Assembly (NCBI GenBank): GCA_009838175.1
Contig: VXSB01000056.1
Location: forward strand, 1 to 64,000
DNA from: Chloroflexota bacterium
GTDB taxonomy: Bacteria; Chloroflexota; Dehalococcoidia; Lucifugimonadales; Lucifugimonadaceae
Direction of reading: 5' to 3'
DNA: 64,000 nt
Shown: in pieces, positions 239 through 4,599 of the stretch
Numbering within the stretch: position 1 is the first letter of the stretch
How the letters are laid out: every line of letters begins with the position of its first letter
Position numbers and translations under genes: made by a program
Notes under the pieces: generated by a model
The model's input: only the letters and a program-made list of their open reading frames with translations
The model's database searches: none
What the model was told of the DNA's origin: nothing

Positions 239-700
239 TTACGGACGTGGCTGTTGGTGATGGGTGTCGGGGATTGGGTTACTTGTCCGCAGTTCTGGGA
301 ATAGTGAGAAATCGCGGTCGCGAGTGAGGAGCGCATCGACTCCGTGTGCGACGCAGATGGCGGCTATTCGGGCGTCATGCACGACTCCACCGATCACTCT
401 AGGACGTAGCACGAATCTCTCTAGTATCTGAGTAAAGTCCTCGGTCTCACCAATCAATCGCACTGAGGGCGAAGAGGTCCAAGCGGTGAGTTGACGCCAT
501 GATTGTTCTTGGCTAGTGGCGTTTTCCTTCCAGATACGACGATTCGTCACCACGCTTAGAAATTCGTAACAACAGGGCCAAGGAATTGCCCAAACATCGT
601 TTCCTTCCGCTAATCCACGCATGATTGAAGCCGCGGCTCCGTGGTAGCGCGACTCGCGGCGATGGGCGTAGACAAGCAGATTGGTGTCAACAGCGATCAT
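239..700 (-). CDS. PIN-domain toxin, VapC-like ribonuclease
   Basis: A 153-residue PIN-domain protein, probably the RNase toxin of a type II toxin-antitoxin pair. The N-terminus reads MIAVDTNLLVYA with the first metal-binding Asp at residue 5. A central glutamate follows in CCYEFLSVV, and a C-terminal acidic cluster in HDARIAAICVAHGVDALLTRDRDF completes the usual four-acid site. Length is slightly above the usual 125-145. It overlaps the antitoxin gene upstream by four bases (697-700), the normal coupling for VapBC. PIN enzymes cleave tRNA or other structured RNAs, but the target here cannot be read from sequence. The two family B repeats at 201-227 and 1026-1050 flank the pair. Confidence 0.85.
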   Translation of the reverse strand: MIAVDTNLLVYAHRRESRYHGAAASIMRGLAEGNDVWAIPWPCCYEFLSVVTNRRIWKENATSQEQSWRQLTAWTSSPSVRLIGETEDFTQILERFVLRPRVIGGVVHDARIAAICVAHGVDALLTRDRDFSLFPELRTSNPIPDTHHQQPRP

Positions 701-945
701 TGGACAGTCGGATTCGCGTAGATCTCATCGCGCAGATCTTGCCACGAGTAGGTCTCCAATGGATCGTGTCCACCAGCTTCACCAACACTAAGGTCTGGAA
801 GCACGTAGCGTTCTCGCCGGGTAGGAGATGCTAACACTTGACGCAGTCCTTCTTCAACTACGGCCCTGAGTGGTCGTCCGGTCAGCTTGGCGTGCCGCTT
901 TGCTCTCGCAAATAATTCATCTTGGATTTCAAGCGTGGTCTTCAT
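697..945 (-). CDS. VapB-like antitoxin
   Basis: An 82-residue protein starting MKTTLEIQDELFARAKRHAK, typical of ribbon-helix-helix antitoxins: an N-terminal beta strand (TTLEI), then an Arg/Lys-rich amphipathic helix (residues 9-20) and a second helix (about 25-38). The acidic, aromatic C-terminal tail would wrap around the PIN toxin. It should neutralise the downstream toxin and repress the operon by binding its own promoter. The gene ends in a four-base overlap with the toxin start. A TAATAT -10-like box lies only eight bases upstream of the ATG, so the mRNA may be almost leaderless. Exact antitoxin subfamily is uncertain. Confidence 0.8.
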   Translation of the reverse strand: MKTTLEIQDELFARAKRHAKLTGRPLRAVVEEGLRQVLASPTRRERYVLPDLSVGEAGGHDPLETYSWQDLRDEIYANPTVQ

Positions 946-1052: not shown

Positions 1053-2213
1053 TTACCCTGACCGATACCTCGGGATGCTACGCAGATACTTTCGCCAGAT
1101 TAGGAGGGGGATGATGGTTAGGACCATTCCGACGATGGCGATGGCTAGGACGGCGGTGTCGGTGCCGATTTGGGTGGCTAACCAGCCTATGTGGAGGGCG
1201 CCGATGGGTCCGGATCCGATGGCTACTGCTAGCACGCCGAGGACGCGGCCGCGCATTTCGGGTCGGGTAGAGGAGACAACGATGATGGATTGCATGGTGC
1301 CGAAGCCGGACATGCCAAAGCCGCCAATGAAGAGTAGGGGGATGGCGAGCCAGTACCAGGGTGCGAGGGCAAAGGCGGCGATTACTAGTAGGAATCCGAG
1401 GGAGGCGTAGGTGTATATGCGGGTGAAGTGCCGCGGTTGTGCGGCGGCGGCGATGGTGAGTGATCCGAGGGTTGCGCCGAGTCCTTCGATGCTGATGAGC
1501 GCGCCGACGAGGACGGGGTCGATCATGAGTTTTTCGGCGCCAAGCACGGGGACCATTTGCTGGTAAGGGAAGGCGAATAGGTTCATGGTGATGGTGATGA
1601 TGATGGTGACGAGGAGGACGGAATCGCCTAGGATGTGTTTGACGCCGCTGCGTAGGTCAAAGTTGCTGCTTGTGGTGGGTGTCCGCGTTGCGGTGGTCGG
1701 TGTTTTGCGGATGATGAGCATCGAAAAGGCGAGTGCGGATGCGACGATGAAGAGGCCGGTGCCGAGGAAATAGACGGCCTGCATGCCAATGGTTTGGAGG
1801 AAGGCACCTCCGACGATGGGTCCGATGACGCGTGAGAAGTTGCTGGATGCCATGTCGACGCCGAATGCGGATGAGACGCGGTCGGCGGAGACGATGTCGG
1901 CGATCATGGCGCGTCGGACGGGGAAGTCAGTGGCCCATACGACACCGGAGACGAGTGCTCCGGCTGAGACGTGCCAGAGTTCGATGCGGTCGGTGAGTAT
2001 GAGAAGGCCGAGTGTGAGGTAGACGCTAGCGAGGAAGATGTTCGTGGCGGCGAGAATGGCTCGACGATTGACCCGGTCGGAGAACGCTCCAATGAAGGCA
2101 CCTAGGAACAGCATGGGGGCCATGCGTAGGAATCCGACGAATCCGACTAGGAACGCCGATTCGGTGAGGTCGTAGACGTATACGCCGAGTGCTACCGTCT
2201 CAAGCCATCGCAT
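1053..2213 (-). CDS. MFS transporter (MFS_3/EntS-like exporter)
   Basis: A major facilitator transporter. The stretch shown is 386 residues from the first ATG, but homology with the neighbouring paralogue (3244-4599) continues upstream in the same frame: the deduced residues before the ATG include FGNP, DYARLW and GIGVST, matching FGNP, DYVRLW and SIGVSL there. That upstream frame contains no ATG, GTG or TTG; a CTG at 2391-2393 overlaps the stop of the upstream gene and has GGGGGAG four bases before it. Starting there gives about 446 residues, close to the paralogue's 451. The conserved loop DRVNRRAILA, between helices 2 and 3, marks the MFS fold. Substrate unknown; drug or metabolite export is typical for the family. 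Confidence 0.85.
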   Translation of the reverse strand: MRWLETVALGVYVYDLTESAFLVGFVGFLRMAPMLFLGAFIGAFSDRVNRRAILAATNIFLASVYLTLGLLILTDRIELWHVSAGALVSGVVWATDFPVRRAMIADIVSADRVSSAFGVDMASSNFSRVIGPIVGGAFLQTIGMQAVYFLGTGLFIVASALAFSMLIIRKTPTTATRTPTTSSNFDLRSGVKHILGDSVLLVTIIITITMNLFAFPYQQMVPVLGAEKLMIDPVLVGALISIEGLGATLGSLTIAAAAQPRHFTRIYTYASLGFLLVIAAFALAPWYWLAIPLLFIGGFGMSGFGTMQSIIVVSSTRPEMRGRVLGVLAVAIGSGPIGALHIGWLATQIGTDTAVLAIAIVGMVLTIIPLLIWRKYLRSIPRYRSG

Positions 2214-2389
2214 TGTGCTGGTTGAAACGCCGATGCCCCAGAGTCGGGCGTAGTCGCGGTCGAGTACGACTTTGAAGCGCGTCAGGGGATTGCCAAAGCC
2301 CGATCGATGTCGTCTGGGACGTCGTCTGGTTGCTGCGCGCGGTGTTGTCGTCTCACCCGACGCAGCGTTGCGAGCAGGCGAAGGGATTT

Positions 2390-3109
2390 TCAGTTCACTC
2401 CCCCGTCGTTGTTTGTGAATTGCGGGGGTGTGCCGCTCCAGTGTCCCAGTTGCTCGAATCTTGCCGTTTCTGTCCAGAATTGGAGGTTGGCGTGATGGCG
2501 GTTCAAGCCGTCTTGTTCTTCACCGGGTAGGGCGACGCCATTACGCAATAAGAGGCCGTTGACCATTGCGCGGTCGGCGTAGACGTAGCGCAGGAGTCGC
2601 CCGAAGTCGTCGGTGTCGACCTCGTCTGCTTCTAATAGGACCTCGCTGTTGCCGACGAGTTGTTGATGTGCCAGTATGCTGATGTCGTACCAGGCGCTCT
2701 CCAGGGGCAATGGTTCGACACCGATGTAGCGGACGGTGGCAAGTTCGCCGTCGATATCGACGATGATGGTGCGGACATCGACTACTTCGACTACTTGTGC
2801 GGGCACGTATTCGATGCGTTCCGGTTCGTCAGATCCGAATGATCCGAGGAAGGGTCCTGCTAGGCCGGCAACTAGTCCGAGGACGATAAGGATTGAGATG
2901 ACGGCGATTCCGGCTTTGATCCACCATGGGCTAGTGGATTCGGATTCGGTGCTCCAACCGTCAACGGCGCGACGCTGAGGAGGTTCGTAATCGTCGGTGT
3001 GGTTCTCGTCTTCGTCGATTTCGTAGTAGCGATATCGGAGATCGATCTCATCGTCTTGCGCCCGACGCGCATCTTCGTCGTGCTCTGGTCCTTGTCGGCG
3101 GGTGCTCAT
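2390..3109 (-). CDS. Membrane-anchored thermonuclease-like (SNase-fold) protein
   Basis: A 239-residue protein. Residues 1-60 are very acidic and polar (many D, E, R, Y), residues 63-88 form one membrane helix (WWIKAGIAVISILIVLGLVA), and the rest resembles a staphylococcal-nuclease (OB-type) domain. The strand with VRYIGVEPLPLES lines up with the family VRLxGIDTPE region, and DDFGRLLRYVYAD with the second catalytic Arg. The usual DGDT calcium/active-site motif is replaced by DVRT, so nuclease activity is doubtful. Its stop codon overlaps the proposed CTG start of the MFS gene, so the two are probably co-translated. A second, catalytically complete SNase-domain protein lies at 36472-37716. Confidence 0.65.
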   Translation of the reverse strand: MSTRRQGPEHDEDARRAQDDEIDLRYRYYEIDEDENHTDDYEPPQRRAVDGWSTESESTSPWWIKAGIAVISILIVLGLVAGLAGPFLGSFGSDEPERIEYVPAQVVEVVDVRTIIVDIDGELATVRYIGVEPLPLESAWYDISILAHQQLVGNSEVLLEADEVDTDDFGRLLRYVYADRAMVNGLLLRNGVALPGEEQDGLNRHHANLQFWTETARFEQLGHWSGTPPQFTNNDGGVN

Positions 3110-3243: not shown

Positions 3244-4599
3244 TCATGGCGATCTAGGGATGCTACGCAAGTAACGCTGGCTTGACAGAACCGTCGCTGT
3301 GGTCAATGCCAATCCGATTGCCGCGATGATGAATACGGCTTTATCGGCGCCGAACTGTGTGCCGAGGAATCCGACGAATAGCGCACCGATCGGCCCGGAG
3401 CCGATCGCTACCGTGAGTACACCTAGAACTCTGCCACGCATCGCTGGGCTGGTTGAGATCACGACGATCACCGATTGCATCGTGGCGAATCCTGACATAG
3501 CAAAACCGGATACGAATAGCAACGGGATCGCGAGCCAGTACCAAGGGACGAGTGCAAATGCCATCAAAAGCGCCAACAAACCTACCGACGAGTATGTGAA
3601 GACGCGAGTGAAGTGCCTGGGTTGTGCCATTGCCGCAACCACGAGTGCGCCTAATGTTGCGCCTACTCCTTCGACGCTGAATAAAAGCCCGACCAACACC
3701 GGATCGACGTGCAGCTTGTCGGTGCCGATCACTGGGATCATGAGTTGATAGGGGAACGCGAAGATGTTCATCACCACCGTGACGATGATGGTCACGAGTA
3801 GGATTGCGTCGGTCCTCACATGTCGCAAACCGCTCCGCAGATCGTAGGTTCGACCGTTCCCAGTCTCATCTATTGCAGCCGTCTCGTTGCGTCCGGTCTT
3901 TGTGAACAGCATTGACAACGCAATCAGCGACGCCATTGTGAACATTGCCGCACCGAGGAAATAGACGCCCTGCATCCCGATCGCCTGAATGAAAACGCCG
4001 CCCACCAACGGTCCGAAGATGCGGGCGAAATTGCCGGATGCCATGTCGACGCCGAAAGCCGCGGGGAGTCGATCAGGCGGCAGACTGTCTCCGATCATTG
4101 CCCTCCGAACTGGGAAATCGGTTGCCCATAAGACACCGCCGATGAATGCCCCTGCCGAGACGTGCCACAACTCGATGCGACCGGTCACAACCAGCACGCC
4201 GAGAACCAGATAGATGATTGCGGATGTGAAATTGGTCGTCGCGAGCATCACGCGCCGATTAACCCGGTCGGCGATGGTGCCGATGAACGCGCCTAGGAGC
4301 AACAATGGCACCAACCGCAGGAAACCGATGAATCCCACGGCGAACGCCGATTGTGTCAGTTCGTAGACGTATATGCCGAGAGCGACGGTTTCGAGCCAGA
4401 AAACGATGTTGAGAGATACACCGATGCTCCATAGCCGCACGTAATCGGCGTTCAGAAGCAGCTTGAAGAGCAACAGCGGGTTTCCAAAGCTGACACGTCG
4501 CTGTACTGCGACTTTACGCACCGTAAGCCCGCGTCGGTGTCTTTGATCGCTACGGAGAGGTCGGATGTTCAACTGGCTCCGACGCTCCGAGATAGACAC
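3244..4599 (-). CDS. MFS transporter (MFS_3/EntS-like exporter)
   Basis: A 451-residue major facilitator protein, full-length for the family, with a basic cytoplasmic N-terminus (residues 1-40), about 12 hydrophobic segments and the loop motif DRVNRRVMLA after helix 2. It is a close paralogue of the 1053-2213 protein over its whole length; blocks such as AFPYQ, EGVGATLGAL and GSGPIGAL are shared. The listed start is GTG with no clear Shine-Dalgarno; a downstream GTG is possible. Two related exporters and a membrane nuclease-like protein on one strand suggest a duplication with an intervening gene. Transport substrate cannot be inferred. Confidence 0.85.
   Translation of the reverse strand: MSISERRSQLNIRPLRSDQRHRRGLTVRKVAVQRRVSFGNPLLLFKLLLNADYVRLWSIGVSLNIVFWLETVALGIYVYELTQSAFAVGFIGFLRLVPLLLLGAFIGTIADRVNRRVMLATTNFTSAIIYLVLGVLVVTGRIELWHVSAGAFIGGVLWATDFPVRRAMIGDSLPPDRLPAAFGVDMASGNFARIFGPLVGGVFIQAIGMQGVYFLGAAMFTMASLIALSMLFTKTGRNETAAIDETGNGRTYDLRSGLRHVRTDAILLVTIIVTVVMNIFAFPYQLMIPVIGTDKLHVDPVLVGLLFSVEGVGATLGALVVAAMAQPRHFTRVFTYSSVGLLALLMAFALVPWYWLAIPLLFVSGFAMSGFATMQSVIVVISTSPAMRGRVLGVLTVAIGSGPIGALFVGFLGTQFGADKAVFIIAAIGLALTTATVLSSQRYLRSIPRSP

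Follow-up and report, generated by a model that had tools for sequence, protein, structure and literature searches.

We evaluated a pair of minus-strand genes in the window (the whole 64,000-nucleotide stretch of a Chloroflexota contig that was analysed), namely an SNase-like gene and, immediately downstream of it, an MFS transporter gene. In minus-strand orientation, the SNase-like gene ends GTG AAC TGA and the MFS frame runs CTG AAA ATC from 2393, such that the two genes meet in the four bases CTGA (Table 1). The initial annotation had proposed this CTG as the MFS start, describing a codon that lies in the MFS frame and overlaps the SNase stop, a GGGGGAG four bases 5' of it, a frame open 5' of its first ATG with FGNP and DYxRLW as in a tandem paralogue, and a product of 446 residues, all of which the sequence and its translation bear out. 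It had also described a frame without ATG, GTG or TTG from the upstream in-frame stop to the first ATG, which holds; its position for that stop, near 2535, does not, being about 13 bases off. As to neighbouring genes, the tandem MFS paralogue upstream of the SNase-like gene is 62% identical to the MFS gene over most of its length, one other genome of the genus (G006) also has such a paralogue, and just 3' of the MFS gene a VapB-like antitoxin gene (697-945, minus strand) and a PIN-domain toxin-like gene (239-700, minus strand) overlap in ATGA.

Table 1. Features of the SNase-MFS junction and its surroundings in the window.
Feature	Position	Strand	Remark
MFS start codon CTG (proposed, putative)	2391..2393	-	in frame with the MFS ORF; conserved in the genus; orthologous to TTG/ATG
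Stop codon TGA of the SNase-like gene	2390..2392	-	overlaps the CTG as CTGA, -4 spacing
Shine-Dalgarno-like element GGGGGAG	2398..2404	-	anti-SD core pairing of -8.6 kcal/mol
MFS transporter gene, from CTG	1053..2393	-	446 aa plus stop; Pfam MFS_1/MFS_3; fold model
SNase-like upstream gene	2390..3109	-	239 aa; PF00565, E 1.6e-7
First ATG of the MFS frame (taken not to be the start)	2211..2213	-	residue 61; falls within the predicted first TM helix
Near-cognate ATC, next after CTG	2385..2387	-	found in 4/7 genus genomes
Preceding TAG stop in the MFS frame	2520..2522	-	from translation of the frame
Tandem MFS paralogue	3244..4599	-	GTG start as listed; putative start

Both gene products were assigned by their domains. 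The SNase-like protein matches PF00565 above the curated cut-off (32.2 bits, profile positions 32-106 of 107) and has a hydrophobic stretch, read by eye, in its N-terminal half; it seemingly lacks the DGDT-type motif of active nucleases, and we presume that it may be an inactive relative. The MFS protein scores above the curated cut-offs with 127.9 and 92.5 bits (PF07690/PF05977). Its AlphaFold model, built from a 31-sequence alignment (pLDDT 84.6, pTM 0.82) in place of a useless one from seven sequences (pLDDT 35.4), had VMAT1, G6PT1 and MdfA, all MFS transporters, as its top Foldseek matches. The model places a helix at residues 46-77, the predicted first transmembrane helix (TM1), and is of low confidence over residues 1-34.

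To place the junction in an evolutionary context, we compared seven genomes of the genus (g1; G000-G006, MAGs of uncultured Chloroflexota, Dehalococcoidia/SAR202). Translated from the CTG, the MFS protein has matches over its length in the six other genomes at 81-89% identity, and in all seven the SNase-like gene lies immediately upstream and the junction reads CTGA. The SNase tail is variable in sequence and, by as much as 14 codons, in length (14 extra codons at the C-terminus in G006, extra codons at the very end in G003 and G004), always ending on the CTGA overlap, and the SNase codon that holds the C is AGC (Ser) in G003 and G004 and AAC in the other five. At the level of sequence, the CTGA junction is thus confirmed as real and beyond chance, being the same in seven of seven genomes despite these indels. 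The initial annotation had allowed for an assembly error, with relatives carrying an ATG one base different; no such ATG was found, and a one-off error is very unlikely because the CTG recurs in six other, different genomes.

What other start codons each genome offers differs across the genus. Taken strictly, no AUG, GUG or UUG gives a full-length protein in four of the seven genomes (G000, G001, G003, G004), where none occurs before mid-TM1; the MFS frame of G003 and G004 is interrupted by a TAG with three codons left before the CTG, and the next ATG, GTG or TTG stands at +168. The remaining three hold TTG or GTG nearby (numbered relative to the T of the SNase TGA): G005 and G006 have TTGs 46-88 nt upstream, inside the SNase-like gene, and G002 has TTG 46 nt upstream, TTG at +14, GTG at +38 and TTG at +104. 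The codon two past the CTG is ATC in G000, G001, G003 and G004, and GTT, GTC or CTC elsewhere.

At the family level, 42 of 76 genomes have an SNase relative; 43 SNase loci were examined, with an MFS gene downstream in 38 and not in five. Apart from the seven of g1, the junctions read TTGA in 15 of 18 cases in the sister genus g12 (the others being TTAATG in two, and TTAG followed by TTG in one), TTGA in the single g8 case and ATGA in five of six in g11, the sixth having an ATG at +10, while all six in g10 are without an overlapping start. Since the orthologous junctions carry TTGA or ATGA, the CTG of g1 sits at the position of the orthologues' start codon, and in seven genomes of g12 initiation can only take place at the overlap, the TTG being immediately preceded by an MFS-frame stop. 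A maximum-likelihood MFS tree (36 rows, two of the 38 being omitted as too short) places g1 as sister to g12, followed by g8 and then g11, with the deep order tentative because the program warns of long branches. The simplest history would be a TTG-to-CTG change along the g1 branch, silent for SNase because it turns AGT into AGC and both encode Ser.

We then assessed Shine-Dalgarno (SD) strength as the pairing, in kcal/mol, of the 20 upstream bases with a generic anti-SD core rather than one read from the 16S gene. By this measure, the seven g1 junctions give -8.6, -8.6, -2.6, -9.8, -9.8, -6.4 and -6.4 (median -8.6), such that an SD motif inside the upstream gene, which is typical but not obligatory for NTGA coupling, is found at -6.4 to -9.8 in six of seven genomes, with G002 at -2.6. 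Sister genera are weaker (medians of -3.4 in g12, 15 junctions, and -2.7 in g11, five junctions; -2.0 in g8), as are, in roughly 824 kb of sequence from g1, 45 other ATGA, GTGA or TTGA junctions (median -3.5). The difference gave p 0.0019 by genome and 0.032 collapsed to four lineages against g12, and p 0.0009 and 0.024, respectively, against the other g1 junctions, values which are only a guide because the genomes are related. The duplex of GGGGGAG itself was unmatched by any same-gene control window. As a separate observation, the weak SD at the CTG is confined to G002, and it is this genome that carries the TTG at +14, which may point to a start-site shift in progress (L041/L012).

Taken together, these patterns support the initial annotation's reading of the CTG as the MFS start. 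We think it probable (roughly 0.8) that the MFS protein is translated from the CTG by reinitiation after termination on the SNase-like gene, at a junction descended from UUGA that became CUGA with a stronger SD. In this scheme the SNase-like gene would be translated and its ribosome would terminate at the overlapping UGA; the G-rich SD four bases upstream would hold the terminated ribosome, which would restart one base back, using fMet-tRNA at the CUG, a case of termination-reinitiation at -4 spacing, giving a full-length MFS protein with an intact TM1, as the structure is predicted. The ancestral UUGA would have become CUGA in the g1 lineage by a T-to-C change that was silent in the SNase-like gene (AGU to AGC, Ser), and the stronger SD element would have come along with it. 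We infer the use of CUG, the coupling and the order of change from TTG to CTG with SD gain from these comparisons, the termination-reinitiation at CTGA specifically from its geometry. Several points weigh against a CUG start, as CUG is reported to be a poor initiator (PMC11497404) and has even served as a non-start (PMC11260477), and in G002, with its weak SD, the TTG at +14 could serve instead.

The conservation of the C speaks less strongly than it may appear to. Although the CTG is unbroken over pairwise four-fold-site distances of 0.22-0.96, 35 of the 73 two-fold codon columns that can be compared are likewise C in all seven genomes, a chance of about 0.48, and we therefore rejected C conservation as proof of selection for the CTG. 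As the C by itself is not unusually conserved, which also counts against the preferred reading, the CTG may have arisen by drift and be tolerated as a start. A compatible addition to reinitiation at the CTG, rather than a competitor of it, is that selection keeps the CUG as a start for coupling only, unusable by free ribosomes, which would hold the transporter low and tied to the SNase-like gene. We offer this tentatively, as possible but on balance unlikely: the unbroken CTG and the strong SD fit it, but retention of the C by chance is about one in two, GC3 of the SNase-like gene is 0.665 in g1 versus 0.523 in g12, such that C is favoured without selection, and a strong SD would invite free ribosomes too.

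Among readings that would replace the CTG, initiation at another codon appears quite improbable. It could draw on the ATC two codons on in G000, G001, G003 and G004, on the TTGs inside the SNase-like gene in G005 and G006 or on the TTG at +14 in G002, but the ATC is missing in three of seven genomes and the TTGs are absent from the other four, leaving the CTG alone common to all seven and at the orthologous start position. It is highly improbable that the MFS protein arises not by initiation at the CTG but as part of an SNase-MFS fusion, made by a -1 frameshift at the overlap or by suppression of the stop there. Stop-codon suppression together with coupling is reported for one M. tuberculosis pair at an NUGA overlap (PMC11260477); in the seven genomes here no conserved slippery heptamer was seen by eye, the MFS-frame stop of G003 and G004 leaves only three codons before the CTG, and in seven g12 orthologues that stop lies directly before the start codon, leaving no room for a frameshift. 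That translation begins at the ATG at 2213 with the open frame upstream untranslated, as its being the first ATG and the one that an ATG/GTG/TTG-limited ORF finder returns would have it, is barely credible, given that this residue 61 falls in the middle of the predicted TM1 helix and would halve it, that it lies 3' of residues 35-60, which are largely invariant across the seven genomes and partly common to the paralogue and sister genera, and that codons 33-60 change as coding sequence does (differences of 0.388 at third versus 0.102 at second positions). A gene finder restricted to ATG, GTG and TTG would make the MFS protein 60 residues too short and lose half of TM1.

A relaxed initiator tRNA (M1-like, without one anticodon-stem G-C pair) was considered as a cause and found unsupported. 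The canonical arm GGGCTCATAACCC occurs once each in G000, G003, G004 and G005, all four called tRNA-Met(CAT) by ARAGORN, with no altered G29-G31/C39-C41 pairs where the arm was found (four of seven genomes); GGGCTCATAACCC was unmatched in the other three.

Asking how widespread such starts are in the genus, we surveyed parts of five genomes, covering 611 genes that had a partner (205 from G004), at a threshold of 20 codons, a design that is blind to fewer than 20 missing codons and to pairs of at least 92% identity. Fourteen of 572 ortholog pairs passed, three of them the MFS gene, one a second gene and ten others; inspection covered eight of these ten, which were set aside as apparent shadow ORFs or as sharing an ATG, GTG or TTG, the remaining two being short (ORF pairs 2205/437 and 1441/2025). 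Among those inspected, two gene families clearly extend well 5' of any ATG, GTG or TTG, the MFS gene and this second gene. Of the eight CTGA rows in the survey, three lie outside the MFS gene, with an ordinary start nearby in two (GTG at -4, ATG at +20) and a 95-aa ORF of doubtful reality in the third.

The second gene (L120:7421-8125 in G005) is conserved, with orthologues L124, L125, L126 and L127 (G000:C23:4664-5344), and had no Pfam match. None of its five full-length genus copies has ATG, GTG, TTG or CTG at its start; they do have an AGGAG, spaced 7-8 nt from a downstream GTT/GTC codon, and an ATA at roughly the aligned position of the sister genera's ATG start. At L125, near position 604300 of G004:C1, the second gene is preceded by a repeat-like insertion in which the end of the upstream methyltransferase-like gene is duplicated. 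The broader idea that this genus tolerates non-canonical initiation beyond that of known bacteria, with the MFS CUG and the second gene as regulated, low-efficiency starts that gene finders miss, we regard as doubtful.

Viewed against known systems, the locus resembles NTGA (-4 nt) coupling (reviewed in PMC12548453; tested pairs in PMC6728339 and PMC10666635) in its four-base geometry, with the start of the second gene sharing two bases with the TGA of the first in seven of seven genomes, in its same-strand gene pair and in an SD within the upstream gene. It differs in that those sources, whose main texts contain no match to CTG or CUG, deal with ATGA/GTGA and with NTGA as a class, without a CTGA example, whereas here the overlap is CTGA and coupling is read from it; likewise, no title or abstract on bacterial CTGA coupling was found in the open-access literature, which is no proof of absence; the one paper listed for a CTG start together with coupling concerns an antisense gene. 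At the protein level, domain scores above cut-off and a predicted MFS fold are what the product shares with MFS_1/MFS_3 transporters. Because one orthologous junction carries ATG, TTG or CTG by genus while its geometry stays constant, it would offer a natural case of an overlap start drifting to a very weak form, and could be used to ask whether ribosomes restarting at overlaps accept a wider choice of start codons than those initiating afresh. Start-codon switches reported across prokaryotes pair a weaker start with a stronger SD (PMC5622118), as at the MFS junction, but switches to CUG are almost absent among them (1 of 2,468 from UUG, 2 of 61,358 from AUG and 1 of 5,080 from GUG), whereas here all seven genomes of the genus share a fixed CUG at a single gene. 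Other literature considered was PMC13245402 and PMC4648390, the latter on a eukaryotic case. Ribo-RET in Salmonella likewise reports bacterial CUG initiation, with CUG at 4 of 26 novel proteoform starts (PMC11005335); those are alternative proteoforms, whereas the CUG here seems to serve as the principal start of a conserved gene at full length.
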